Source: Sphaerolaimus hirsutus (taxonomy: Eukaryota > Nematoda > Chromadorea > Monhysterida > Sphaerolaimidae). Taken from it: DNA of 64,000 bases. Both the position numbers and the translations under genes were made by a program. Within the stretch, counting starts at the first letter, position 1; each line of letters opens with the position of its first letter. Positions 21,469 through 57,203 of this stretch are shown here, piece by piece. The DNA is taken from positions 14,959,855 to 15,023,854 of the forward strand of contig OZ038455.1 of assembly GCA_964036195.1 (NCBI GenBank), written 5' to 3'. The notes beneath the pieces are model-generated. The model saw nothing but the letters and a program-made list of their open reading frames with translations. It was not told the DNA's origin and searched no databases.

Positions 21469-24400
21469 CGCCAGGAACGTGGACAAGGCGTGCTACGTGC
21501 TGGGCTTAGCCGTGCTCGCCACGGGCGTCAGTTTCGCATCCGTGCCTTTGTATAGGGCGTTTTGTCAGGTTGGATGGAATTCCCTGCTACAATGCAGTTG
21601 GCCTGACAATTTTTTTAGACTAGTTTAAGCAATTTCTGCCACTACGCGATTTTTGAGCTAAATATTTTTTTTCATGCAGCTCCAAAGATGTTGCAGAACT
21701 TATTTTGAGCTATTCATTAACTTTTTTAAGCCATATGCTGTTTTATAACTTTTTTTTGTTGAATTTTGAACGATTTTTCCCTACTTTTAGTTCAAAATCG
21801 CTTGGCTTGTAACTGTTTGCCTATTTTATGCATACATTTTTGTGTTGTGTTTTTCAATAATATCTATTCTAAACTAAACACCTTCCCGGACAAGTTCACC
21901 ACCCATTTTTTTCACGTTGAATGCAATAGCTCTGTCCATGGGGGTGTTCTAAAGCTGAAACTTTGTATATAGCAAGTTGTAAGACCGCTCTACTCCCCAA
22001 CAATGGGGGAGGTGCGGAGACTCACTACAGGGTGGGTCACCCTATATGCAACATTTTTTAAAGGCGTTTTTGATGTCCCAATCAAGTTCACCACCCACTT
22101 GATTGGCTACAGTACGAGGGCCATATCTCAAGCTGTGAGGGTGGTATAAAGCTGAAATTTTGGGGATGTCTTGTCAACAACCCCCCTCACAATACACCAC
22201 TGGGGCGGCTGCCGACGACCCACTAAAGCATGGGTCACTGCATATAAAGTTGACCATTTTCTAAAAACAGCCCAAGTGTCCCAAAACAAGTTCATCACCC
22301 AACTGCATTAAAAAAAATGTTGCAACAACATACCTAATATAAAACTGAATCGGGTTGGAACCCTAGTTCAGGCAAAACAAATTTTTTCAGTAGGGCACCC
22401 ACCCTGTCCCATAAACGGTAGACCGAAAATTTGACTTTAAACCAATTTTTTGTTTCACACTTAAAAAGTTGGTTTACAAAGTTCACTAGAGAATGGTCTA
22501 AGGTTCAAAGTTATGTAAACAACAAAACCTCTAAAATGCCTCCATAAGGAAATTTACTCGGGGTGAATTTTATGATGTCAAAATGATGTCATTGCAGGAA
22601 CAAAATTTGACAAAATTTTCACTTTTTCATTCACCCCAAATAAATTTCATTATGGAAGCATTTTAGAGGTTATCTTGTTTACATAACTTTGAACCTTAGA
22701 CCATTCTCTAGTGAACTTGGTAAACCAACTTTTTAAGTATCATACAAAAAATTGGTTTAAAGTGAAATTTTCAGTCTACCATTTATGGGACAGGGTGGGT
22801 GACCTACTGGAAAAAATTTGTTTGGCTGAATTAGGGTTCCAACCCGATTAAGTTTTTTATTATATGTTGTTGCAACATTTTTTTTATGCAGTTGGGTCAT
22901 GAACTTGTTTTGGGACACTTGGGCTGTTTTTAGAAAATGGTCAACTTTATATGCAGTGACCAATGCTTTAGTGGGTCGTCGGCAGCCGCCCCACTGGTGT
23001 ATTGTGAGGGGGGTTGTTGGCAAGACATCCCCTAAATTTCAGCTTTATACTGCCATCACAGCTGGAGATATGGCTCTTGTAGTGTAGCCAATCAAGTGGG
23101 TGGTGAACTTGATTAGGACACCAAAAACGCCAAAAAAAATGTTGCATATAGGGTGACCCACCCTGTAGTGAGTTGCCGCACCTCCCCCATTGTTGGGAAG
23201 TAGAGGGGGTCTTACAAATTTATATATACAAAGTTTTAGCTTTATAACACCCCCATGGAGAGAGATATTGCATTCGAAGTGAAATAAAAAAATGGGTGGT
23301 GAACTTGTCCGGGAAGGTGTTTTTTTCACCTATAATTGGCGATTCGCTCCCTTGTTTGCCTTCTACACTTAGGAAACGCCTATATTTGATTTATTTTAAT
23401 AATCTTTCCAAAATGAGTGAAAAAGTAAATTTGAAAAGTATTTGAAATTCGGCAATTTTTATTTAAAAACTATTTTAGAGAAAAACCCTCCGGAATTCGA
23501 AAACTCATTTTAGTATTTTTTCAATTCAGTCGCTTTCCTCCGGGGTGTTCGCCGTCGTCTACATCCCCTTACCGCCAAAAAATTTTTTCTAAAAATATCT
23601 CGCAGGCGACCGGTTTCGGTGGGACGACTCAAGTTGAACTGGACGTGGACAAAATTGTGTCTATGCAAGCGCGCAAAGACAGACTTATTCGGGTGAAATT
23701 TTTGGCAGACACTCACGCGGCTATGCGCTGGAAATTCAGACCGCTGCAGGATGAAATTTGGGTAAGTTTGGGGCAGCGGTCGTAGTGCCCAAAAACGCAA
23801 AGCTTTTTATCTACCCATCTATCTGTATAAGGCGAATATTTTGGAGCCAATTTTCAGCAATTTGCATCCGGGATGGAAAATGCTGATGACGATTAGTTGA
23901 ATTTAATAACTTGATCTTGAATAATTGGTTGACAAAAAAAGCCATTTTTACGATGAATTGGTCGAAAATTTTCTGGAAAATTCTCTGGTAACTTATTCAA
24001 GGATTTGGGGGATTCCTTGTCACGGCATACACTGCGTGATGTGAACAACCTTGACCGCATAGATCAAACATTTTTATTTGACATTGTGGTCTAGAAACTC
24101 ATCTCCATTCACCGTAGTCGCCATAGTAAGGTTGGGAATTTATAAATTTTCGGTTCGGTTCCAAAATATGGTTGGAACTGCGGTTCGGTTCAGGTGCCCA
24201 ACCTTACTCCATGGTACTTTGAACACCCTGAGCACAAATTCAATCAGAACCCGACCATCGACTGAGCGCATGAAAAGTGCCACTTACGTTCTAAAAACAT
24301 CTGGTCACTGTGAGGAAAATATTAACCCCCAAATTTCCAAATTCAAGTCACCCCCAACATATTTATTCAGGTGCACCCGGGGGAAACTGCGCTGGCATTC

Positions 24401-27252: not shown

Positions 27253-28394
27253 TAGTGATGGAAAAAGCGCCAGGCTTTCGGCGCCAAGCGCCAAAAGCGC
27301 CATGGCGCTTTTCTGATCCCGGCGCCAAGCGCCAATGGCGCCAGAGCAAAATAGCGCCAAGCGCCATGGCGCTTTTCTGGACCTCAGCGCCAAGCGCCAA
27401 TGGCGCCAGAGGGTGATGGCGCCAAGCGCCAATAGCGCCAGCGCCAAAAAAATTGTTCTGCGATTTGATGGTAGAAAAATGAGTGAAAGGCATAACTGTG
27501 TGAACTTTTGCCCATTCAAACAACCACTACAATGTTAAAAATTGTTTAAATGCCCAGAGATATATTTTTCAGTCAAACATCATGACTGGGGAACTTTCAA
27601 TGGGGGTATCTTTGTTTCTCCCAGCTAAGAGCTGGAGTGATTTAAGGGGCGTATATAGCCATAAACAGTTGAAAATAGGTGATAATACACGTTAAAGATG
27701 ATGATTTTAAAGTCTGAAAAATCACGATAGTGATTTTTAAGGTGAATACTATAAAAAGTATGAAAATCAGCATTTTTTGTGAAAATTGGGGCAAATTTTC
27801 TCTAATAATCGGTCCGTATCTGGTTGCAGGTTGATAGGGGGGGGCTCGAGGGATAGTAGCCTAAAATTATGTTTCAAGTTAGATAGATAGCTGAGCGGCC
27901 CTGGGGGTGGATAGATAACTGCAGCATTTAAGTTTAACTCCACCGTCCCCCCTCCAACCCCCGCCAGACTGAACCCCTGATTTAGACAGCAAGAAAGAAT
28001 TGGGAGCAAAGCATAAAAGGGGATTTATCGCCAGCACATTTTAACACCTTTGCTTTTATTCGATGTAGGTACCTATATAAAGGCTGCCCTAAAATTAACT
28101 TATATTTATTCATTTGTCCTCAAAATTGATCATCTCGAGTGGCGATTTCACCGTATTTTAACAATTTCATATTATCATGGTTGGCGCTTTTTTGGCGCCA
28201 TTTAAAATGCCGGCGCCAATAGCGCCACCGGCAAATGGCGCCAAGCGCCAAAAGCGCCATGGCGCTTTCGCATACCCCAGCGCCAAGCGCCAATGGCGCC
28301 AGAGCGTTTTAGCGCCAAGCGCCAAAAGCGCCATGGCGCTTTTTGCTTTGGCGCTAGCGCCAGGCGCCAGCGCCATGGCGCTTTTCCATCACTA
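27253..28394. mobile_element. 1.14 kb hAT-type element with GCGCCATGGCGC arrays and 8-bp TSD
   Basis: Flanked by GTCCCGAG on both sides (27245-27252 and 28395-28402). Ends TAGTGATGGAAAAAGCGCC and GGCGCTTTTCCATCACTA. Both arms are arrays of GGCGCCAAGCGCCAAAAGCG-like words; the middle (27480-28170) is AT-rich and holds a GGGGTTCAATAT-type sequence. The duplicated target is itself part of a CAGTCCCGAGCCCTGT end, so this element landed in the terminus of an older MITE. Antisense frames rich in Ala/Arg/Trp (such as 27214-27519) are array artefacts. Confidence 0.88.
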
Positions 28395-31400: not shown

Positions 31401-33631
31401 GCGCAGAATCCCACCATAATTTTATGAATAAAATCTTGTGAAAAATTTCGTAATTATTTATACCATAGTAAAAACGGAATATTATGATGAAAAAACTGTA
31501 TAATTCTTGGTTCATTATTAAAATGGTTTATGGTAGTTTTCCATACTAAGTGTGATGTCCGCTGAGTATGCCTAAATACATTCGCCGCAGTAAATATGAC
31601 CAGGGTGCGCTGTACTCTATTTACGAAATAGATTGTGTTGATCTCTAGAAATTCTGATATCGAGAGATCTGATAAGTGGCCAGACTTTGAAAGATAAATC
31701 TTGACAAAGAGCTTGTTTGTGGCCGAGTATAACACAATTTCCTGTCTGGTGATTTGGCATGATACGGTAATTCACATTTGCAGGGGGTTTTATTCAGAGC
31801 TCCTTTTTGAACTAGAAAATTGATGAAAAAATGAGCGTGGGAAACAAATTCAGAAATTTGAAAAAATTCTATCTAACAGTGACTTTCTAATGAACTTTAC
31901 GAAAATTTTGACGAAAAAATAAGCCACCTATAATAATTTTGCTATTTAACACTGCTCAAATTTTGCTGGTAAAACAGTTAACCCGCAGGGGGTACTTCGA
32001 GGGTATACGAGGGTTTTGCAAAAAGAATACGCGTAGACTACATTTCCATTTTGAACCATCATGTAGTCTGAGTGGGTTTAACATCGCGTCCTGTTGTAGA
32101 ACCTTCCAAGCTTGAACTTAGTTAAGAAGTCTTTCTTTATTGTGCCTACACGCTCTAGTTTTTCTACCGGAATTTCGGAAAATTTGAAAAACTCTTTAAT
32201 CAGCTTTGAACACGTATGATTTAACCGGAATTAGTATCATATTGCGTTTCCTATCAGAGTTGCGAAACGTATTTACATTTACCCGGGATACCCTGGTATG
32301 CAAGGTACCTATTTATAAATTTACCGTTTTCCAATAATAAATACCATTGAGCTTTGTTACATTTTCATAAATTCTACGTTAACGTTTTCATCTACGTTTT
32401 CCCAGGTACTTTTAGAATACCTGACATTTGAGTATAAATAATCAAAATTGCGTAAATTTATTTGGTTGATGTATTTATGTTTATGTTTACGCTTTCAAAA
32501 AATATTTGGAATATTTGTTCATATTTTTGGTCAACAGTATTTGACAAAGGTCGGTCACATGTGTTGAAATGTGCTAATGCGTTTTCTAGACTGTTGTGTG
32601 TAGGGCCATTCATAATCAAATGCAGAAAAATTTCATTATCATTTTGTTATAGCGTATCCATCAAAACTGCCCAAATTTGTTAAAATTGTTAAAGAATTTC
32701 TGCATTTACCTTGGCGTTAAGTGTATAGTTTTCTATCGTCAAATAGCCCGGTCATTTTATTACAGCTAAAATAGAAAGTACGGAAATGCCGTTCTCTTAA
32801 TCACATCGTGGAACGGTGAAGATCAGTCTATCTAATATTCATTTTGATCATGTGCCGAGGTAAATCTGTGGGAGCCAATCTGAAATTTGATACGGAAGGC
32901 ATAATTGCTTGGACGCTTGAAAATGTGTACAGGGTGGCCGAAATTTTTGCATTTTTGCATGTTCGCTTTTGGCGCTTGGCGCCATATTGCTCTGGCGCCA
33001 TTGGCGCTTGGCGCGGGGGTTCGAAAAGGCGCCATGGCGCTTTTTTCGTCACTAGTGGCAACCCTATTTTCAATGCGATTCGTCCGATGCCCTGCGTGCC
33101 CTTGCCCGTGCGCGCGGCATTTCTCTGACATTTTGTGGGCGTGCCGGGTAGGGTTCGATCGAGGGCTCGAAGCACTAAAACGATTGCCTAACTGAACCGA
33201 AATATTTTGAATTAGGTATGTTTATTTCAATTTTACGGTGAAGTTAACTTTCCGTTTCAGCGCAATTGTTCATTATGCTGTAACTTACGCTAAAACTCTT
33301 TTACCGCATTTCTTCTAAAACCCTTCTATTTTTTTCGTCCACCTGTTATAATAGCCACTTTTTCACCCTTCTTTTTTCGCCATTTTTCCAGACATTTTAT
33401 AAAGTTCAGCCATCATTGTACAATACTACTTAAAATCCTTTATTTAGCACAATTTCATAGCCTTCAATATGCTTTAAATAAGAACAAATCGACACAGCAA
33501 ATGAGTCAATACCTGCTAAAGAAATTGATCATTTTTCATCAGACAAAATGATGGAACTGTCCGACATTGGCGCTTCTTCATTGTCAGAAAATTTTCATAC
33601 TCTTCATTGTTCTAAAATGTCATACAGGGGC
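28403..33631. other. Intergenic, no gene recognised
   Basis: AT-rich. I see no exon series or RNA gene. Visible repeats: the remaining CAGTCCCGAGCCCTGT sequence at 28395-28440, a diverged CCTGTAAAATG/ATTTTACAGG pair at about 29005-29100, a TATACTCAGCGGACTGC element at about 31377-31571, a CAGAGTTGCGAAACGTATTT hAT-like end at about 32258, and a GGCGCC array at 32965-33055 ending in GTCACTAG. Confidence 0.45.
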
Positions 33632-34109
33632 GGTCACAAGCCCTGTAAAGTTTAAAGTAAAGTTTCAAATGTAAAGTCAAATGCAAAGTTAAATGTCAAT
33701 TGTCATGGAAAGTGTCAAATGCAAAGTCAAATGTAAAGTGTCAAATGTAAAGTCAAATGCAAAGTCAAATGTTAAGTGTCAAATGTAAAGTAAAGTGTCA
33801 ATTGTGTATCCAAATCTTATTTTTTGTATCCAAATCTTATGTTTTTGTATCTAAATCGTATTTTGATATAAGATTTGGATACAAAAACATAAGATTTCGA
33901 TACCAAAAATTAGATTTGGATACACAATTGAAACTTTACTTTACATTTGACACTTTGCATGACAATTGACATTTGACTTTGGATTTGACTTTACATTTGA
34001 CACTTTACTTTTCACTTTACTTGACATTTGACACTTTACTTTACATTTGAATTTGCATTTGACTTTACGTTTGACATTTTACTTTACACTTTACAGGGCT
34101 TGGGATTGC
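33632..34109. mobile_element. Long member of the CCCTGTAAAG palindrome family
   Basis: Starts GGTCACAAGCCCTGTAAAGT and ends ACAGGGCTTGGGATTGCC. The arms are tandem AAAGTCAAATGTAAAGTGTC words and their complements. The core is a palindrome of GTATCCAAATCTTAT units. The same core occurs in the copies at 60328 and 61739. Confidence 0.75.
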
Positions 34110-34532
34110 CACCAGATTAGTAGATGCAATTTTTGCATGATCAACATCATTTTTTGGCACGTTGACAGCACCCGCCGCCATTTTTTTGAGCGTTTGTCAC
34201 ATTTCCAGCAGTTTCACTATGTACCTTCTATTGAAGACGCCCTTCTATTGGAAACCCGTCCCTCTATTAGAAAAAATACGGTATTTATTTTATATTTTAT
34301 ACGGCATAAAAGCTGTCGTTCTACGTGGATCACCTTGTTGCTGCTTCATGGCACTTACGTATTCAAACAAATATCTGATTTTAGTGTGATCGTTTTGTTT
34401 TACTATTGTTTTCATGTGAATAATTGACGACCACTTTTACGACAAATTTAACGCCAGCGGAACCGTCGAAAATTATAAATATCGTAGGTCCAAAACATTT
34501 TATTATTCACTTCGGCATTCTAAAGTCCAGAA

Positions 34533-37500
34533 ATGGCTCGGCAAAATTCGATGCTTGCTTTGGTGGCAATGGTAATGTTTTTTCGGGGTTTTTGCTGAGT
34601 TACATTCCAAAAGTATATTTGTCCACAAACTTCGGGTTTTTTTTATTAAATTTTCCAAGTTTTCAGCGACGACGCTTGTCCCGCACTTTTCTGATTCTTT
34701 AGACTATTGGGTATCTTCATTTTCGCTGAGGGGAAAAAGGGCCGATTTAAGAATATGGTTACTTGTCGATGAGGCGGAGTTCCGCTGCGCTTTTGTAATG
34801 ATAATCGGTGCCGGACATTAAAAATCTTTCGAAAAAAGAATGAATCTTTCGAATGCCTCTCGAATAAACTTCCGGATTGCCCGGCACGCCCGTTGCTAAT
34901 CACATTTGAGCCCTGTTGCACACTTTCAGATGGTGTGCGCTTTGAGCGTGGTGCAGTGCTTGGAGCAGCCCTACTTGATGCCCTGGGTGTGTTCTCGGTG
35001 ACATTTTCACAGTTCACACCACAGTTGTAAAAATGTATGTACATTTACTCGAAAAATACGCGTACGCGAAAATACATTTACATATACTTTTGAAAAAGTT
35101 CAGTAATTCTAACAACTCTGGTTCACATATAGCACCAGATTATAACAGTTTCCAACGTGCAGTGGGGCGCACTTTCGCAGCTGCCGGCGGGCCGGCCGCT
35201 GGCGGGCAAGCGCATGGCCGACGCCCTGTCCGGCTCCGCCTTCGTGGGCAAGCGCATGGCCGACGCGCTCAGCGGGTCGTCTTTTGTTGGTCGGTTTTGT
35301 TGACACCACTAGTTGGCAGTGGTGTGTTTGGGATGCTAGTATAGTTGGCGGACACAACCTTAGTATGGAAACGTAGCATAACCCATTTGAATAATGAACC
35401 AAACATTCATCATTTTGTTTTATCTTTACTATGGAATAATGAATTACGGAAATTTATCACGGGATTTTATTGATTAAATTATGGTAGGTTTGTGCGCATA
35501 CTTGGCGTACGCCGAGTACCGTATTTCCTCGAAATACCCCAAGGAGGTCTATTTTTTCAGAATGGAAATTTTCAGGGGGGTATTTCGAGGGGGGGCTTCT
35601 TCGAGGGGGGTTTATTATTTCGTCAGAAATTTTCAAGAAATTCATAGTAAACAGTATGCTTTTTCATACCCAAAACCGGTAATAAACGTGGGTAAATATG
35701 ATATATCGGGACATATCGGGTATTTAGACGTACATCTGTACACATATTAATGTATATGTGTATCTGCGATGCAAATTGGCATCAATAAATACATCATGTA
35801 CATTGCATACATGATGTATATCATTCCAGACGGGGGTATTCCGAGGGGGGGGGTTATTTTTTCCTCAGCTCGAAAACACCTGGGGTATTTCGAGGGGGGG
35901 GGGGGGTAATTCGAGGAAATACGGTATATCTCATATTTATTGACCAGTAGTTTGAAACTTTAGCCTTCCATTTGTCAATTGACGGGATGTCAGATTGGTA
36001 TTGGTTTATTTCCTTTTATATTCAGCTTCATATTACCTACAATGGAAAGCAGGCATTTCCAACTTTTTGAATTCACAAAAGGGCACCCTCGATTTGGAGG
36101 CAACCGGGTTTTCAACAAAGTTGTTAAGAGGTACGTACGTGTACTCGAAGAATATGTGTACGCGAGTACGCGGTAAATACATTTACATATACTTTTTGAA
36201 AATATACCGTACACACTTATACGCGTACATTTTTAAAGCATACGTGTACGGGAAATGTATTTCAGAAAATTCAATGTGGAACATATTTATAAAGTCACTA
36301 AAGTACTATGTATTTGCAGAAGTGGTTCCGTTGAATATTAAAGATACGTAGTAGTGCCTTTAAAAATAAGAAAAATCGCAACCAAATCGAAATGGTTGTG
36401 GAGACAATAGAAGTGGAAACGGGTTGGGAGAGCGCCGATTTTCATCTCCTAGAATAAAGAGACCTTCAAAACTATTTTATCTACCATTTTCTTATAGAAA
36501 AACATACGTTGTGCTGTAAACATATGAAAAGCGCCCACTTTCGCATATTCTATGGAGAAAAGTACTCGTTTCTACACTCACAAGAAAAGTACCCACATTT
36601 ACGCGTAAGAAAGAGTAAAAAAAAGTATTTTACGTCTCGGGCACTATACAAATTTGAGGGCTTTTTTCGAACACTTTCCAAGTGCTGTGCATACTGCATA
36701 GTGCCCGGGCACAATGCATTTCACTCGACGATGTCTTTGTATACCAGAAATACCGCCGCCCATACATAATTGCATGGTGAAAGTCCCATCACTAGACCAG
36801 ACGCGTGCACTAGATGTGCGCGGCGCGCCACAACATATGAAATTGTTACATATTTATGCAACAGGCGCTAGCATGTGAAAATTCAGTCCCTTTGTGGACA
36901 TAATCCGACTTGAGTGGCAAATATATTTTTCTGCATTGCATAATGCCCAGGCACTTTGCATGGAACTTTTTGCAATGTAGGTATAATGCCCCGGGCACTA
37001 TGATCGGGGGGGGGGCCTTATACACGGAGAAATACGGTAGTGCGCGTTACAGTGCAAGGTCGCCGTTTATGGGTTATAGTATATATCCGGACAAAGTATG
37101 ATAAGAAGACATCGCTCTATCGATATTTATCAATAAACCATATCACATTTCCACTTGATGCCGGGGATACACGTCACCAGAAAGTTCACTGGGAGGTACC
37201 TAGTTCAGTTAAAATACATATGTTCCACATGTAGTGTGGTACTTGTCAAGGTTTGCAAATTTAATGTACCTATCAACACGCCTCACCCACCCCCGCCTGC
37301 AGAATCTACCATTATAATTTTAAATCAAATTTTATTGCAATAGCGGTGGGAAAAAGGTGTTGGTGTCGATGATGTCGATTGAAATTAATGTCCTATACAA
37401 ATTAAGATGTCGGTGGACTATCGCAAGTTATAAAAAGTGTCCATTCAACTCCACAGGCAAGCGGATGGCGGACGCGTTGAGCGGTTCCGCCTTCGTGGGC

Positions 37501-37584
37501 AAACGGCACTATTTCGACTTCCTAGACGAGCGCGGCCGCCGCGCCCACAAGGGCACCCCTTCGCTGATCGGATGGAGCTTTTGA
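34533..37584 (+). CDS. Secreted neuropeptide-type precursor with three amidated repeats
   Basis: Exons 34533-34571, 34930-34986, 35163-35289 and 37457-37584 have AG/GT borders and compatible phases, giving 116 aa. Exons 1-2 encode a signal peptide (MARQNSMLALVAMMVCALSV, then VQC). Exon 3 encodes WGALSQLPAGRPLAGKR, then MADALSGSAFVGKR and MADALSGSSFVG; exon 4 completes GKR and adds a third MADALSGSAFVGKR, then HYFDFLDERGRR and a tail ending PSLIGWSF. Gly-Lys-Arg after each repeat predicts prohormone-convertase cleavage and C-terminal amidation to MADALSG(S)(A/S)FV-amide. I cannot place it in a named family. A weak likeness to the (D-x-L-x-G-S-x-F) pattern of orcokinin/pedal-peptide-type peptides is inference only. 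Further repeats could be encoded by unseen exons in the 2.2 kb last intron. Confidence 0.82.
35517..35927. mobile_element. TACCGTATTTCCTCGAAATA MITE in the precursor's last intron
   Basis: Begins TACCGTATTTCCTCGAAATA and ends TCGAGGAAATACGGTA, with GGGGGTATTTCGAGGGGGG runs and a TACATCATGTACATTGCATA core, as in the other family members. It appears inserted at a CGCCGAGTA end of the TATACTCGGC family (35507-35518). Confidence 0.75.
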
Positions 37585-38264
37585 GAGTGATTCAATCATT
37601 TGCCACCGTGGTGTCGATTCCGCCAGTGGATAGTGACAGGAAGAGTGTGGGTGGTGTGAGCAGGGGCCACTCTCGAACCCTGTAAAATGTGGTGTGAAAT
37701 GTAAAATGTCGTGTTAAGTGTCAAAAGTCATGTAAAATGCCCTGCAAAATGGCACAAGAAACTGGGTCTGGGAGTGGGACCTGGTTACTGCCAAGTAAAT
37801 TTACCGAAAAACTTCCAAAATGTATCGTTGTCACTTTACTTGTCACATACAACCTTTCTTGTCACTTGACCACTTGCGGGTTTGGCTCCTGGTGTTGGTG
37901 ACGCCCCCTTTTTGTGGTATAGAGAATGGTTAATTCTTTCTCCCTTTTCGGTGTGTCCCCGCCCCGACTAGAAATATATTTTTTCATTTTTTTTGCATTT
38001 TTATTCGCCTGGGTCCTGCATCTCAACAATTTTTGATCGGTTGTTGCTTTTTTTCTCTCTTTTTTAAAGCTGAATTTTGGCACTGAGTTCACTAATGGCA
38101 ATTAATCAATTGTCAAAACATCATCAGCATCAGATCTCTGTCTATTCGTCCAATTTCCATTTAAATTCCGTTCCATCCATCCAAAAAAACACGAATGAAA
38201 TGAAGTTTCTGTTGTGTCAATCCACATTCACACTTTTTAGTAAAGTATAGATATTTACCTGGGG
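37585..38264. other. Intergenic 3' of the peptide precursor
   Basis: Contains one end of a CCCTGTAAAATG family element at about 37665-37750. Nothing else is supported. Confidence 0.45.
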
Positions 38265-38448
38265 CAGTCCCAGACCCTGTAAAATGCCCAGTAAAATGTA
38301 AAATGTCATGCAAAGTGTCAAAAGTCATGTAAAATGCCCTGTAAAATGGTAAACGTACGTTTGCAATTTTACCGGGCATTTTACATGACTTTTGACACTT
38401 TGCATGACATTTGACAGTTTGCAGTGCAGTTTACACGGTCTGGGACTG
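38265..38448. mobile_element. CAGTCCCAGACCCTGTAAAA palindromic MITE
   Basis: Starts CAGTCCCAGACCCTGTAAAA and ends ACACGGTCTGGGACTG, with arms of TGTCATGCAAAGTGTCAAAA and its complement around a short AAACGTACGTTT centre. A clear representative of the family. Confidence 0.82.
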
Positions 38449-38667
38449 GCACATGGCGATCATTTACGATACATGTGATTATAAATATAATATTTATTAG
38501 AAGTGGAGAAAAGTGACGCACACTGGGTAAGTGATGTGTAACAGCTGCTTCAATAATAAACATAAAATTAAAATACGGTTGCTTTAAGAAATTTTTACTA
38601 AAAGTGCATTCGCTCTATTTCAAAATATAGCTTGTAAAATTCATATAGGTAGGTAAATAGACATGAA

Positions 38668-41002: not shown

Positions 41003-44000
41003 ATGATATCCAGCAAGGCCACACTGGTCAGTGTGGCATTGCTGTCACTTTTGATGGCCACGGCAGTGCATGGGGCGCACGTGGAACACCAGCTGTATGA
41101 CAAATTGATGGGCAGTTACGACGCGTTGGAGAGACCAGTTGCCAACAGTTCGCACGCGGTCGAGGTGAAACTGAGTGTTATATTGCAACAGTTGATTGAT
41201 GTGGTGCGTTGGGTTTTTTTTGTTTTGGGTTGTGGATTTGAACGTGTGTATTGGTTATTTGTGATAATTAGGACGGTGCAGTTTTTGGTTTCTCATAAAC
41301 ATGATCATCTCCACCTTGCAGGACGAGAAAAACCAAATTGTGACGGTGAATGCCTGGCTTAAATATGTGAGTTATTCAAAATTTGCATATTACTACAACG
41401 TGTACCTACACGTCCTAGAGGTATTTTACAGAAGTATATTATACGTAAATCCCCCTCAAATTCTCATAGGTATTTCTATCAGAATTCTAGAAAGATACAC
41501 CACCAAAGCAACATTTTTTAAACATGTGTAATAAATCAATCTAGGATACTATCAATGTCAATTGACAAGAAAAGTGACGTGGTAAAAGTTATTCAAGTGG
41601 CACTTGCCATGACAACTAATTTCAACTGCAAAATAACCTGTCACATCTTACAACTTCCCCTAAAAAATCATCCCATTAATTGTCCCTCCGCCACAAAAAA
41701 CACGCCCAAAACTTGGCATAAGCACTCAGACGTGGAACGACTACAAGCTAGTCTGGTCGCCGGCCGACTACTCGGGCATCACGGACGTGCGCTTCCCGGT
41801 GGGCACGTTGTGGAAGCCGGACGTGTTGCTGTACAACAGCGTGGATTCGAGCTTCGACTCGACCTACGGCAGCAACATGATCGCCTACTCGGACGGCACC
41901 ATCAGCTGGATACCGCCGGGCATATTCAAAATCAGCTGCAAGATCGACATCACCTGGTTCCCGTTTGATGAGCAGGCGTGCTTTTTCAAGGTGAGCTTGT
42001 TGTTGAGTGTGTCGATTACCTGATTTCCTAGAAATACCCGACGAATTACCCCCACTCTCGAAATACCCCTCTCACAATCAGCACGGCATACTGCTGGGTC
42101 GGGATGGCGGTAGGGTTCAAACGGGATTGACTTTTCGGGATCGGGATTGTTTTTTTGAGATTTCGGGATCGGAATCGGGATCGGAATCGGGATCGGGATT
42201 GGTCGGGATTGGGGTCACGGGATCGGGATCGGGATCGGAATTGGCATTTTTTTCGGAATCGGGATTGGGGTCTTGGGATAGAGATTTTGGCCAATGTTTT
42301 GGCATCCACAGTTGTTCATAAAGGTCTAAAAACACTGTTGGATGCCAGAAATGTGGCATAAAATGAACGCTGGTGGTTTGCGTTCACATTTTTGCATGCA
42401 AAAACGTCGTTTTTTCACTTTTGATAATTTCCACTAATTTTTCCAGGATCGGGATCCTGGACTTTGAAGTTTCTCGGGATCGGGATCGGGATTTGAAAAG
42501 TTTCGGAAGCGGGATCGGGATCGGGACTGCTAAATCCCGGAATAATTTCACGGGATCCGGGATCGGGATCCCGTTTGAACCCTAGATGGCGGCTGGGAAA
42601 AACATCGCCAGGCGCCAAGAAACGCTGTTGGCGTCATTATATATTCCACCATTGTGCCAAAAAAGCGCCACGCCAGGAAAAAATTTCCATGGCGCTTTTC
42701 CTAAACATGCGCCTTTTCACCAGCAGTGAATGAAAACTGTGCATGCTGGCACGTTCCCATCCCAAATTCCTTCTGGCTAGTGGTGGGAGCCTGCAAGGGT
42801 AAATTCTCGCGTTGTAATCAATCTGTATGGCTCTGTCTGTAAAATAGGTAGTCAAATGCGCAATAGAAACTTGAAGCGAGCTTACAAATAAAATATCAAT
42901 ATTTTCCACGATCTTTAAACGTTTTTTAAACTTTCCCAACGCAGTTCGGCTCGTGGACTTACGATGGGACAAAATTGAATTTACAACCGGATGAAAGTGG
43001 CATGGACATGTCCGAATACCTCATCAACGGGGAATGGAATCTGTACAGTGCGTTTGTTCGTTGCTTTTGGAATAATTTTTGCTCATTGCGTTAACAAACA
43101 TTTGGTTTATTTTTTGCCTTTCAATCAGCTATAAGTATGACACTCGATAACCCCCCCCCCCCAAACACAGAAACGGTCGTAACTCGCAACGAGAAATTCT
43201 ACGATTGTTGTCCAGAACCGTATCCAGATCTGCGATTCATCATGCTCATGAAACGTCGCACGCTCTACTTTGGCTTCAACTTGATAATTCCGTGCATTTT
43301 GATCACGTTAATGACAATTTTAGGATTCACGTTGCCACCGGATTCCGGCGAGAAAATCGGATTGCGTTAGTGCCCCTGAAATATGTTTCATCGGGAAACG
43401 TGAATCGAAAATTTCGGCACGCAGAAATCACCGTGCTTTTGTCGATTTGCTTCTTTCTGTCGATTGTGTCCGACATGACTCCGCCCACTTCGGAGGCGGT
43501 CCCACTGCTGGGTGAGTGGATTGAAAAAACACGGTTGCAAAAAATAAGGACGCTACGCTTTTAACTCACGTTAAGTCAAAAATACTCACGTTTACGTTTT
43601 CTGAGGGAAAAGTACGTTTACGATACTCATCTTTTACGCAGTGTAAAAGTAAAAAAATTACTTTACATTTTCTGTACTCAGAGGGTGAGTAAATAAATAA
43701 TACTTCCCATTTACGTATACTTTGAAAAAAGTTCAGTACTTTGAAGAACTCTGATTAAAATTACTAAAAACGTTCAAAATCACATTTTCAGGTACCTTTT
43801 TCTCCACGTGCATGTTTGTAGTGTCCGCCTCAGTCGTTCTTACTGTGGCTGTGCTCAATTTTCACCACAGGACGCCAGATACCCATGAGATGGGCGCCCT
43901 GACTTCAGGTCTATTTGATGCAAGTGTTCTTTTATTTTTATTTTTTATTTGGCACAATGTTCGAACTTTTTTTCTCACGGAACGTAGGTAAGCACAATTT

Positions 44001-47000
44001 GAAAAAACACAATTTCTAAAAACAGCCGTGCTTCTCTACTGGGTGCCGTGGCTGTTGATGATGCAACGACCGGGCAAAAATATCACCAGGAAAGACTTGC
44101 CGCCGCTGTGGCCACTGATCAGTTCGAGTTTACCATTTTGTGGCTCCAGCGGTGATAAATTCAATGTTAGCCAATGTGTCGGCGATGGCGATGATGAAGA
44201 GAATCAATTGATTGAGGATGATGTGAGTTGTTTTAAAATTTCTTTGCAGTGGAATATTTTTGTGCTGTTTTTGGAACTTTTTATGTTTTGAATCATTTGG
44301 AAGTATGTAGTGATGGAATGGCGCCATGGCGCTGGCGCCATTTGAGGGCGCCAAAGGGCGCCGCGCCATGGCGCCATTGGCGCTTGGCGCCCTTTTTCTG
44401 TGGCGCCCTTGGCGCCTGGCGCCCACATTCTGAAAGGCGCCATGGCGCCCTTGGCGTATGGCGCCCTTTTTCCGTGGCGCCCTTGGCGCCTGGCGCCCTG
44501 CTTTAAAAGGGCGCCAAAAAGGCGCCGGCAGGGTTTCAAGGTGAGTGCTGTGTAAACGAAATAAAAATAAAAACGCATGCGTGGAAAATCTAAATTCGCC
44601 GGAAAAATGGACGAAGTGGTGTGAACGGGTGGAAATCTTGCATCCAACGGTTCATCAGATGTGTCTAACGGATCAGAAAATAAGAATGATGAACCGTTGA
44701 ACTTGCAAAATCATAAATAAATGGATTCAAATAGTTGCAATTCCGTTTTTGTCCATTTTATGGAAACATTGATTGAAAAAGTCTATTTGAAGTGAATGGA
44801 TTGTTGTCAAATGACAATTTCCATTTTGTTTTAACTCGTCATCTGGATTTTATTACAAAATTTTTTGTTGCTAGTATTGTTTTTGTGCATTACATCCTGG
44901 AAAACGCCAATAAAGAAGTGAATGCGTGTACTATGGTCTGTAGAAACATTTTTAGCACTTTTAGGGTGTTGTACGCACTTGTTTATCGTGGCGCCCTTGG
45001 CGCTTGGCGCCCTATTTTCCAATGGGCGCCATGGCGCCATTGGCGCTTGGCGCCCTCTTTCCGTGGCGCCCCTGGCGCCTGGCGCCCAGTTTCCGAATGG
45101 CGCCATGGCGCCCTTGGCGCCTGGCACCCTTTTTCTGTGGCGCCCTTGGCGCTTGGCACCCACATTCCGAACGGCGCCATGGCGCCATTGGCGCCTGGCG
45201 CCCTTTTTCCTGGCGCTTTTCCATCACTAGAAGTATGACACCGAATGCCGAGCGCCAGTGGCACATCACTAGTGACGGAAAAGCGCCAGAAAAAAGGCGT
45301 CAAGCGCTAAGGGCGCCACATACATTCCAGGAAAAATGTCTTTAGCCCTTTCATGTTTCTGGTTCAATGGCGAACCAAACATTCAATATGGGTCACTGAG
45401 GGATGGAACTCATACATAGGGAGGGTCATTATGTTGACCCCCCACAGTAGAAGTATGCCCCCCCCCCCCCCCCTGCGTACATAGTCAATATTTCGTTAAC
45501 CGTGAACGCAGCACCTTCAGCGATTTTTTTGTTGCTTTTTTTGCATTTCGCTCAATGTGCTTGGCTGTGAGCTGGCACGGTACCAACATTTCGTTTTGTT
45601 CATAAAGTCAAAAATACACTCCATGCCGGGTCGATAATTGTCGGTCGACCGAAGGCAGATGATTGTGAACATGACACGAAATCACAGGGAGTGCAGAGTA
45701 TCAAGTCAACCGAGTATACCATTTTGAATAAAAATTCACAAAGTGATGAATATTTGAGCAGTGCATCGTTTTTCAAGTCACATCACAGACTTTTTCATCA
45801 TTTTAACATGTTTTTTTCCTTTGTTTGAGCATTTTCACAAAAAGGTTAAAGATATTTTTCCACCGGAAATTTGACTTTAGATGGCTGTCAAATGAGCAGC
45901 AACACACATAGAGAGCTAAAAATTGACATGTGGCATAAAGGCACTTTAATCTACAATAATTCATCCCATATATATTCCGACACAGGTCGCACGTTAGCAG
46001 GGGTGACATTGAAATTTTTTGTTCCCGATCAGGAGGCTAACGATATTTTTCCTGGAGTGTAAAAAGGGCGCCAGTGTCATGGCGCCATTCCATCAGTCAT
46101 CACAACACCTCATCCACGGCGCTTTTACACAAAAGTAACGCCCTTATTTAGCTCCCTAGGGAAAGAAAAATGTTTCCATTCGTAGGGAAAGCGTAAGCGT
46201 ACCTAAACGTTAGCATAAACACCTGAAGTACCTGGGTCCTGGTTACCGTATTTCGTCGATTTTTTTGACTGTTCATTTACATTGGCTTGCTCGTTTACTT
46301 TGCCGGGTCTGTGGGGCATCCGAAAAATACATTGCCGTGTCCAAATACATTGGCGTATGAAAATATCGATGTAAAATTATCCCATTTATCCTTTTATGTT
46401 TGCCACTTTAGGAGTCTGACAACTCCACCGCTGTGACAATTTACCTAATTTATGATGAATGCAACGTGGAGTTTACATTAAACATATTTCACATTCATAT
46501 TTACTTTACAAATGCACATGAAAAATAGACTCTGGAATATACATTGCCATGCTCATTAACTTTGCCATGCTCATTTACATTGCCCCCCAAAAAAGCTTAC
46601 GAAACAATACATTGACGGTCAATAAAATCGAAGAAATACGGTACTTTGGGTAATTATAAATACGCTTTCGTAACTCTGCGTTTCTGCACATTACGTCAAA
46701 GATCTACGGTAAAATAGTGATGGAAAAGCGCCAGAAAAAGGGCGCCAAGCGCCAAAGGATACCGCGCCATGGCGCCATTCCATCACTAAAATACGGTGAC
46801 AGAAGTGACGACAAATCATATATTCTAGACGGTTATCGACAATACCGAATACTTGGTACTTTGAGTGTAAATATACCTAATCTACAATATATCTACTTGT
46901 GCCTCACAGGAAGGGGCTGGGGAGCTGGAGAAGCGCATCAAGCAGTGCTTCAAGCTGTTGGCGGACAACGGCGACTGCATGTCGCCCGGCCAGCAGGCCA

Positions 47001-47507
47001 TACTCATGATGATGCACAGGATTTTCGTAGAGTTGAAGGTAGGTACACCGACAAAACGCAATTTTTACGCATTTTCTAACAAAAATAGTGAAGAAATTAG
47101 ATTGTTAAGTTTTTTATTATGTTAAAATAAAAATTTGAAAACTGAAAAAATTTCAAAACGTTTTCGAATTTTTGTTTGCCATCGTTACTTACATGGGTGA
47201 ATTTTTCAAGGGGTCGTGGATTGGTTTTAGAGGGTCGCCGCACACAAATACACAGGGCTCTTACATTTATAATTTATTTAATCACATAAAAATTTTTTTT
47301 TTAAATTACATTTATAAAAAATTTAATCACATTTTTTTCCAGTTTATAACAAATCGAATGGCGGACGAAGACGAGGCAGGTGATAAGCAAAACGATTGGA
47401 AATTCGCAGCGATGGCAATCGATCGAATGTGTTTGGTACTCTTTTCTGTTTTCATTGCTGGTTCCACGTGTTATATTTTCTTCACTGCACCTTATTTGAC
47501 TACTTGA
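41003..47507 (+). CDS. Nicotinic acetylcholine receptor subunit, alpha type (10 exons)
   Basis: Ligand-gated cation channel subunit of the plasma membrane. Exons: 41003-41203, 41322-41366, 41730-41990, 42945-43047, 43171-43365, 43425-43511, 43792-43908, 44026-44222, 46910-47038, 47343-47507; 499 aa, all phases joining. Visible: signal peptide to about residue 24; NSS glycosylation site; loop D WLKYTW; loop [11 protein letters not shown]; Cys-loop C152-x13-C166 ([15 protein letters not shown]); loop B GSWTYDG; vicinal Cys216-Cys217 in [10 protein letters not shown], the mark of an alpha subunit; TM1 [16 protein letters not shown]2 preceded by GEKI with the -1' Glu of cation channels and Leu at 9'; TM3 [16 protein letters not shown] followed by [10 protein letters not shown]; cytoplasmic loop with an acidic stretch; amphipathic helix; TM4 [21 protein letters not shown]2 is unusual ([20 protein letters not shown], with Gly at 2' and Gln at 4'). 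The 59-bp intron 43366-43424 is very short. Orthology to a particular numbered subunit is not claimed. Confidence 0.97.
42111..42584. mobile_element. hAT-type MITE with CGGGAT arrays, 8-bp TSD, in receptor intron 3
   Basis: GATGGCGG flanks both sides (42103-42110 and 42585-42592). Ends TAGGGTTCAAACGGGAT and ATCCCGTTTGAACCCTA. The interior is GATCGGGATCGGAATCGGGA words on both arms around an AT-rich centre. Fragments of the family: about 8638 and 52647-52706. Confidence 0.9.
44308..45229. mobile_element. 922-bp GCGCC-array hAT-type element in receptor intron 8
   Basis: Exact 8-bp duplication GAAGTATG (44300-44307 and 45230-45237). Ends TAGTGATGGAATGGCGCC and GGCGCTTTTCCATCACTA. The arms (44323-44525 and 44988-45215) are dense GGCGCCNTTGGCGCNTGGCG arrays; the centre is single-copy-looking AT-rich DNA. 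The long frames on both strands here (for example 44204-44647 and 44831-45163, minus) come from the arrays. Confidence 0.92.
45325..46062. mobile_element. TIR element with CATTCCAGGAAAAATGTCTT ends, copy 2
   Basis: Left end ATTCCAGGAAAAATGTCTTT AGCC; right end GGCTAACGATATTTTTCCTG GAGTG. The interior is an inverted-orientation relative of 26066-26790 (GACCCCCCACAGTAGAAGTA here versus its complement there; both have ATCAGTCGGCAG/GTCGGTCGACCG-like sequence). Confidence 0.65.
46244..46643. mobile_element. MITE with TACCGTATTTCGTCGATTTT ends in receptor intron 8
   Basis: Left TACCGTATTTCGTCGATTTT, right AAAATCGAAGAAATACGGTA. Interior words TTTACATTGGC/CATTTACTTTGCC are repeated in both orientations. 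An exon-like stretch after TTTAG at 46411 belongs to this element. Confidence 0.72.
46715..46788. mobile_element. 74-bp GCGCC hAT-type remnant
   Basis: TAGTGATGGAAAAGCGCCAG to GGCGCCATTCCATCACTA; the smallest version seen, essentially two ends back to back. Receptor intron 8, 121 bp before exon 9. Confidence 0.7.
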
Positions 47508-55594: not shown

Positions 55595-57203
55595 AACACC
55601 TTCCCGGACAAGTGCACCACCCATTTTTTTATTTAACTTCGGATGCAATATCTCCGTCCATGGGGGTGTTATAAAGCTGAAACTTTGTATATATAAAGTT
55701 GTAAGACCCCCCTACTCCCCAACAATGGGGGAGGTGCGGCGACTCACTACAGGGTGGGTCGCCCTTTATGCAACAATTTTTTTGGCGGTTTTGGTGTCCC
55801 AAACAAGTTCACCACCCACTTGATAAGATACACTTCGAAGGCCATATCTCCAGTTGTGAGGGTGGTAGAAAGCTGACATTTGGGGGATGTCTTGCCAACA
55901 ACCCCCCTCACAATACACCAGTGGGGCGGTAGCCAACGACCCACTAAAGCATGGGTCACTGCATATAAAGTTGACCATTTTCTAAAAACAGCCCAAGTGT
56001 CGCAAAACAAGTTTACCACCTAACTGCATTATAAAAATGTTGAAACAACATACCTAATATAAAACTGAATCGGGTTTGAACCCTAGTTCTGCTAATAAAA
56101 TTTTTTTTCTGTAGGGCACCCACCCCGTCCCATAAAACCAAAAACCAAAAATACTCTAAAGGTACCAAAGGGCAGACCAAAAATTTCACTTTAAACCAAT
56201 TTTTTGTTTCACACTTAAAAAGTTGATTAACAAAGTTCACTAGAGAAGGGTCTAAGGTTCAAAGTTATGTAAACAACATAACCTCCGAAATGCCTCCATA
56301 AGGAAATTTACTTGGGTGAATTCTATGATGTCAAAATGATGTCATTGCAGGAACAAAATTTGATGAAATTTTCACTTTGTTATTCACCCCAAATAAATTT
56401 CCTTATGAAAGCATTTTAGAGGTTATGTTGTTTACATAACTTTGAACCTTACACCCTTCCTTCCCTAGCGAACTTTGTAAACCAACTTTGTAAGTGTGAA
56501 ACAAAAAAAATTGGTTTAAATTGAAATTTTTGGTCTGCTGTTTATGGGATGGGGTGGGTGCCCTACAGAAAAAAAATTTTATTAGCAGAACTAGGGTTCA
56601 AACCCGATTCAGTTTTATTTTAGGGTTGTTGTTGCAACATTTTTATAATGCAGTTAGGTGGTGAACTTGTTTTGGGACACTTGGGCTGTTTTTAGAAAAT
56701 TGTCAACTATCCATTCTTTAGTGAGCTGTCGGCAGCCGCCCCACTGGTGTATTGTGAGGGGGGCTATTGGCAAGACAACCCCCAAATTTCAGCTTTTTAC
56801 AACCCTCAACTGGAGATATGGTGTTCGAAGTGTAGCTAATCAAGTGGGTGGTGAACTTGTTTGGGACACCAAAAACGCCAAAAAATTTTTTTGCATATAG
56901 GACGACCCACCCTGTAGTGAGTCGCCGCACCTCCCCCCATTATTGGGAAGTAGTGAGTCGCCCTGTAGTGAGTCGCCGCACCTCCCCCCATTATTGGGAA
57001 GTAGTGAGTCGCCCTGTAGTGAGTCGCCGCACCTCCCCCCATTATTGGGAAGTAGTGAGTCGCCCTGTAGTGAGTCGCCGCACCTCCCCCCATCTTACAA
57101 CTTTATATATACAAAGTTTCAGCTTTATAACACCCCATGGACGGAGATATTGCATCTGAAGTGAAATAAAAAAATGGGCGGTGAACTTGTCCAGGAAGGT
57201 GTT
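55595..57203. mobile_element. 1.61 kb foldback element, copy 2
   Basis: Ends AACACCTTCCCGGACAAGTG and CTTGTCCAGGAAGGTGTT, and full-length similarity, in the same orientation, to 21877-23322. The longer size is mostly a 51-bp tandem array at 56911-57092 in the right arm. Confidence 0.88.
56911..57092. repeat. 51-bp tandem array inside the foldback element
   Basis: CCTGTAGTGAGTCGCCGCAC begins units at 56911, 56962, 57013 and 57064, with CTCCCCCCATTATTGGGAAG between. The units look identical, so it is a recent expansion of arm sequence that is present once in the copy at 21877. Confidence 0.92.

Follow-up and report, generated by a model that had tools for sequence, protein, structure and literature searches.

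Positions 34533–37584 on the plus strand of the window, the whole stretch of 64,000 nucleotides that was analysed, hold what we take, at a probability of about 0.8, to be an amidated neuropeptide precursor gene, most likely of a diverged pedal peptide/orcokinin type. The predicted precursor contains MADALSGSAFV twice and MADALSGSSFV once, 11 residues each and every time followed by Gly-Lys-Arg. That the gene is real and of the amidated neuropeptide type is well supported at the DNA level, and the link to the orcokinins, drawn from pattern and profile, is suggestive only. The peptide sequence is new to the searched literature, and the kind of system is already known.

Gene structure

Four exons in one frame make up a coding sequence of 351 nt, corresponding to 116 amino acids and a stop codon, and the four-exon frame of the preliminary description was recovered at the same coordinates with its joins in frame. 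Exon 1 (34533–34571), encoding MARQNSMLALVAM as the putative start of the signal peptide, is in frame but is the least certain of the four, and a TATAAA sequence, a possible TATA box seen directly in the DNA, lies at 34474–34479, 59 bases 5' of the ATG. Exon 2 (34930–34986) encodes MVCALSVVQCLEQPYLMPW, the remaining hydrophobic leader and the start of the propeptide, and exon 3 (35163–35289) encodes WGALSQLPAGRPLAGKR and repeats 1 and 2, its last base opening a Gly codon. This codon is interrupted after repeat 2 by a phase-1 intron of 2167 bases (35290–37456), and exon 4 (37457–37584) supplies the rest of the Gly, Lys-Arg, repeat 3, another GKR, the tail and the stop codon. The third repeat, earlier placed across the junction of exons 3 and 4, is therefore entirely within exon 4; as exon 4 holds one complete copy, the suggestion that copy number might vary by splicing keeps a structural basis, but nothing indicates that splicing does vary. 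The long introns recall those of mermithids, Mermis nigrescens having a mean intron of 2085 bases. The GC content is 0.60–0.73 in exons 2–4 as against 0.35–0.41 in the introns, with a GC3 of 0.83.

For scoring the splice sites, 17 donors and 18 acceptors deduced from protein continuity in two flanking genes served as the reference, and each site was ranked as a percentile among all plus-strand GT (donors) or AG (acceptors). The donors reach the 98th percentile for exon 2 and the 97th for exon 3, and the acceptors the 96th (96.3rd) for exon 3 and the 99th for exon 4, while the exon 1 donor (66th) and the exon 2 acceptor (87.5th) form weaker joins. There are 35 in-frame upstream ATG..GT joins for exon 1, so many being possible because exon 2 itself holds much of the hydrophobic leader, and the exon 1 join is the weakest of the gene model, plausible but not proven. 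The exon 3 donor, GTCGGT, has a C at +3, as in two of the 17 reference donors. For the join of exons 2 and 3 there are five in-frame options, and the chosen acceptor tops the four that were scored; the runner-up at 35139 (88.9th percentile) would add IITVSNVQ ahead of WGALSQ.

A search of the organism's own genome (348,482,957 bases in 762 contigs, with all 15 first-look candidates scored) gave three matches with E up to 0.001, and all of them are exons 2–4 of the peptide locus itself. As far as this search sees, the gene is single copy. The contig that carries it measures 29.3 Mb.

Selection on the repeats

The repeats differ from each other mostly at silent positions, indicating that the peptide is under selection. 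Pairwise, there are 8, 10 and 11 differences in 42 nt but only 0, 1 and 1 in 14 amino acids, with pS of 0.55–0.76 and pN of 0.06–0.10. When equal numbers of substitutions were placed at random, 0, 1 and 0 of 50000 trials left the protein equally well conserved. A unit enclosed by a pair of G[KR][KR] sites and directly followed by another at least 80% identical occurs once in the window, in the peptide gene, and not at all in 150 first-order Markov windows. Pairs of G[KR][KR] sites within 20 amino acids number eight in the window, three of them in the frame of the peptide gene, compared to a mean of 0.76 and a maximum of 4 in the Markov windows.

Predicted products of the precursor

The 116-residue precursor reads MARQNSMLALVAMMVCALSVVQCLEQPYLMPWWGALSQLPAGRPLAGKR MADALSGSAFVGKR MADALSGSSFVGKR MADALSGSAFVGKR HYFDFLDERGRRAHKGTPSLIGWSF. 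Its leader has a hydrophobic core with an 11-residue mean of up to 2.86 and a V-x-C ahead of LEQ, the part contributed by exon 1 being weak. Repeat 1, MADALSGSAFV, is at 35214–35246 and its Gly-Lys-Arg amidation and cleavage site at 35247–35255, repeat 2, MADALSGSSFV, at 35256–35288, and repeat 3, MADALSGSAFV, at 37465–37497, all on the plus strand; the three 11-residue units and their amidation signals are thus where they had been reported. The calculated MH+ is 1067.519 for MADALSGSAFV-amide and 1083.514 for MADALSGSSFV-amide, and oxidation of the Met would bring the former to the mass of the latter.

Besides the three GKR sites the precursor has two further Gly-dibasic sites, and here two of the earlier product predictions had to be changed. 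A separate amide starting at WGALSQ is not expected, since WGALSQLPAGRPLA starts at the predicted exon boundary and not at a cleavage site, and in the four exon-join options that keep WGALSQ there is no Lys, Arg or basic dipeptide between the leader and WGALSQ. The first product is instead predicted to span from the leader cut to the PLA-amide; a cut after VQC would make it LEQPYLMPWWGALSQLPAGRPLA-amide. Similarly, HYFDFLDE is followed by RGRR, another amidation signal, so that HYFDFLDER-amide is the simpler prediction for HYFDFLDERGRR (37507–37542), whose sequence is direct and which should yield this peptide together with a dibasic site. AHKGTPSLIGWSF (37543–37581) is the C-terminal tail and lacks an amidation signal. 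No unit of the NFDEIDR type is present in the precursor.

Relationship to known peptides

When read without gaps from the residue after Lys-Arg, the unit has D3, L5, G7 and F10 in common with the nematode NLP-14/15 peptides, which, aligned in this register, have D3, L, F or M at position 5, mostly G7, and F10 (PMC5344539, PMC5656890). According to PMC5656890, the pedal peptide/orcokinin group takes in NLP-14 and NLP-15 of C. elegans. The likeness, described before as a loose recall of orcokinin and pedal peptide sequences, is closer than that, with four positions agreeing in one register. The NLP-14/15 peptides listed in these sources are unamidated, whereas the unit here has Gly-Lys-Arg; it also ends in Val and has Ala at position 2, where NLP-14/15 have F or L. 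Among 38 published 10-mers compared, the nearest was ALDALEGNSF of NLP-14/15, with six of ten residues identical to MADALSGSSF, followed by AFDSLAGSGF and GLDSLSGATF with five identities to both units and SFDRLEESAF with five to MADALSGSAF. All 38 have F, L or I at position 2, against the Ala of the unit.

C. elegans NLP-3 is amidated. Its peptide YFDSLAGQSL (PMC6381162) shares D3, L5, G7 and S9 with the unit and is identical to MADALSGSSF at four of ten positions, but it has 10 residues and ends in Leu, compared to 11 residues and Val here. In the description of PMC5814872 the pedal peptide/orcokinin type carries a hydrophobic residue, F, L or M, once towards the N-terminus and twice towards the C-terminus. 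Here F10 fits one of the C-terminal positions and Leu 5 might fit, Ala 2 does not, and Val 11 is hydrophobic yet outside F/L/M.

An amidated, Val-ending 11-mer is known from the beetle Tenebrio, in which an orcokinin-B-like transcript encodes SLDGIGGGNLV-NH2 and SLDRIGGGNLV-NH2 (PMC9552230). Like the unit here, SLDGIGGGNLV-NH2 has 11 residues, D3, an aliphatic residue at 5, G7, a hydrophobic residue at 10 and a Val-amide, in several paracopies; it differs in its GGG core and in having at least 30 copies, compared to SGS, Ala 2 and three copies here. Some of the orcokinin-B-like peptides of cuttlefish are also described as amidated, and with those of Tenebrio they indicate that amidation is no bar to membership of the orcokinin group. 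The orcokinin B consensus given in PMC7058690 is x(I,L,V)DxxGGG, from which MADALSGS departs at positions 2, 6 and 8 while D3 and G7 agree, and the peptide was therefore not filed as orcokinin B. In insects orcokinin B is an alternative transcript of the gene that also encodes orcokinin A. The Locusta orcokinin-gene peptide SGLDSLSGATFGEQ (PMC4237046) contains DSLSGATF, with five of eight residues identical to DALSGSAF, but it is longer, originates from the orcokinin A transcript, and its sequence as printed there has no amidation signal.

From PMC5344539 the profiles took 18 of the 25 NLP-14/15 peptides in its Table 1, after removal of two duplicates and of five with a different register or length, and three of the 12 in its Table 2. 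NLP-8 contributed four of six peptides, the Tenebrio OKB-like set two of four, and the eight wasp orcokinin A peptides six distinct 10-mers. Two peptides of the OKB group stem from the Locusta orcokinin A transcript and are described as no more than similar to OKB and orcomyotropin, and one of the two was moved one residue to match the register.

On the profile of NLP-14/15 only, the two units score 3.9 and 6.2, under all 21 left-out members (13.6–31.9) and compared to 9.3 for orcokinin and 7.2 for NLP-3; 2521 and 1608 out of 200000 shuffles of the units score as high. With NLP-8 added they score 5.9 and 6.2, again under all left-out members (25, at 7.6–30.9). Pooling six published groups into one profile gives the units scores of 5.8 and 7.4, comparable with those of entire left-out groups, whose scores range from 1.7 to 8.0 for OKB, −0.1 to 12.8 for OKA, 2.9 to 14.7 for NLP-14, 5.8 to 25.0 for NLP-15 and 4.4 to 15.1 for NLP-8, with NLP-3 at 5.9. 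They are under the medians of NLP-14 (11.1), NLP-15 (9.5), NLP-8 (11.0) and OKA (8.2) and exceed the OKB median (3.7), so that four of the five multi-member groups lie higher. Shuffles of the units match the pooled score in 1659 and 1263 of 200000, fractions of 0.6–0.8% that are optimistic because the register and the groups were picked after seeing the peptide, and random 10-mers match it in 66 and 38 of 200000. For the OKB-only profile the corresponding numbers are 830 and 768 (shuffles) and 352 and 185 (random 10-mers).

The profiles were also applied to HYFDFLDE, which had been considered as the decayed N-terminus of an orcokinin (YFDFLDE compared with NFDEIDR). Starting at Y, its scores are −3.4 and −0.4 in the analysis with the NLP-14/15 profiles and 5.5, −9.2 and 0.2 in that with the pooled profile; starting at H, they are −14.7 to −23.3. 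On these scores it was dropped as evidence.

A diverged pedal peptide/orcokinin-type origin, nearest to NLP-14/15 and the amidated orcokinin-B-like peptides, would on these comparisons have about an even chance. The main rival is a separate, lineage-specific family of amidated neuropeptides whose orcokinin likeness arose by chance in a short peptide, which we regard as possible but less probable. It agrees with the position of the units under every left-out NLP-14/15 member, with the lack of the OKB GGG core, with the absence of accepted relatives in Pfam, NCBIfam and solved structures, and with the absence of the peptide strings from the searched literature, where the text of 5.39 million papers, figures and supplements apart, gave no match. 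It is less easily reconciled with four positions matching in one ungapped register directly after Lys-Arg, and with a length and a C-terminal Val-amide that agree with the amidated orcokinin-B-like peptides. The earlier proposal of an undescribed family is supported in part: the strings themselves are absent from that literature, but in pattern the unit agrees with the pedal peptides and orcokinins. That there is an undescribed Val-amidated family in a nematode-like lineage, whether separate or an amidated, orcokinin-B-like branch of NLP-14/15, is put at slightly under even odds.

In the database searches NCBIfam gave no accepted relative of the precursor, solved structures gave one match (E 0.19) and no accepted relative, and none was confirmed in bacterial/archaeal and viral contigs. 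The Pfam family CW_binding_2 gave an 8-residue sub-threshold match (E 0.0066, 17.4 bits against a cut-off of 24.9) which was taken as chance.

That the frame arose by chance, or encodes a repetitive secreted protein instead of a neuropeptide precursor, could be imagined in a window so rich in repeats, but is very improbable in view of the silent-site excess among the repeats, the GKR sites in register, splice sites that fit the window's own genes and the lack of a comparable case in the Markov windows. An enterin-type peptide, to which the SFV-amide ending of MADALSGSSFV-amide might point, most enterins ending in HSFV-amide (PMC4603347), was rejected as improbable in the extreme, as the unit ends in SAFV or SSFV, no more than SFV is shared and two of the three copies carry AFV, the N-terminal pattern differs with nothing in common, an enterin reference gets −19.0 to −30.8 when scored with the orcokinin profiles, and enterins are known from Aplysia whereas the host appears nematode-like.

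Neighbouring genes and repeats

Upstream of the peptide gene there is a multi-exon phosphofructokinase gene on the plus strand, with exons between 4180 and 15183, and a reading frame at 23435–23782 (plus strand) with a match to COX11/CtaG (E 1.2e-8). Downstream, at 41003–47507 on the plus strand, lies a gene for an ACR-16-like nicotinic receptor subunit, with 3' exon pieces at about 46955–47038 and at 47343–47507. Eight of its exons, when joined, give a product with 68.7% identity to ACR-16 of C. elegans and 50.2% to alpha-7 of human, and around the second transmembrane helix the identity to ACR-16 rises to 90%. With these two references compared, the receptor suggests a nematode or near relative as host, other ecdysozoans being less probable.

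The peptide gene is flanked, at 33629–34110 and 38260–38453, by two large, imperfect inverted repeats that belong to one family (TAAAGTGTCAAATG-like), the longest arms being 148 nt at 81% and 97 nt at 88%, and a further stretch related to TAAAGTGTCAAATG is found at 37661–37754. Dispersed tandem repeats of the GGCGCCAAGCGCCAAT-like kind are located upstream of the peptide gene (27295–27447 and 32969–33014) and within the span of the receptor gene (44369–44499 and 44982–45216), and a 51-base tandem repeat occupies 56910–57093 with 3.6 copies and a 100% match. The window contains no tRNA detected by ARAGORN with the bacterial code and no Rfam family at the gathering score.

Proposed processing and significance

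Neuropeptide precursors are cut by convertases, trimmed by carboxypeptidases and amidated by PHM/PAL. The precursor described here would accordingly enter the secretory pathway, where a PC2-type convertase may cleave the dibasic sites, a carboxypeptidase would remove the basic residues and amidating enzymes would convert the Gly to a C-terminal amide. The expected products are two copies of MADALSGSAFV-amide and one of MADALSGSSFV-amide, a longer PLA-amide peptide from the N-terminal part, and HYFDFLDER-amide. The 11-mers might be released by neurons or by endocrine cells of the gut, and their receptor would be a G-protein coupled one.

Few peptides of this class have been described from basal nematodes, and the two clade 2 species surveyed in PMC8764417 have 14–15% of the C. 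elegans NLP set. If the peptide belongs to a separate family, it would be a new signalling peptide of defined masses. If it is orcokinin-B-like, it would be an amidated form of a bilaterian family in a nematode-like lineage in which the listed NLP-14/15 peptides are unamidated.
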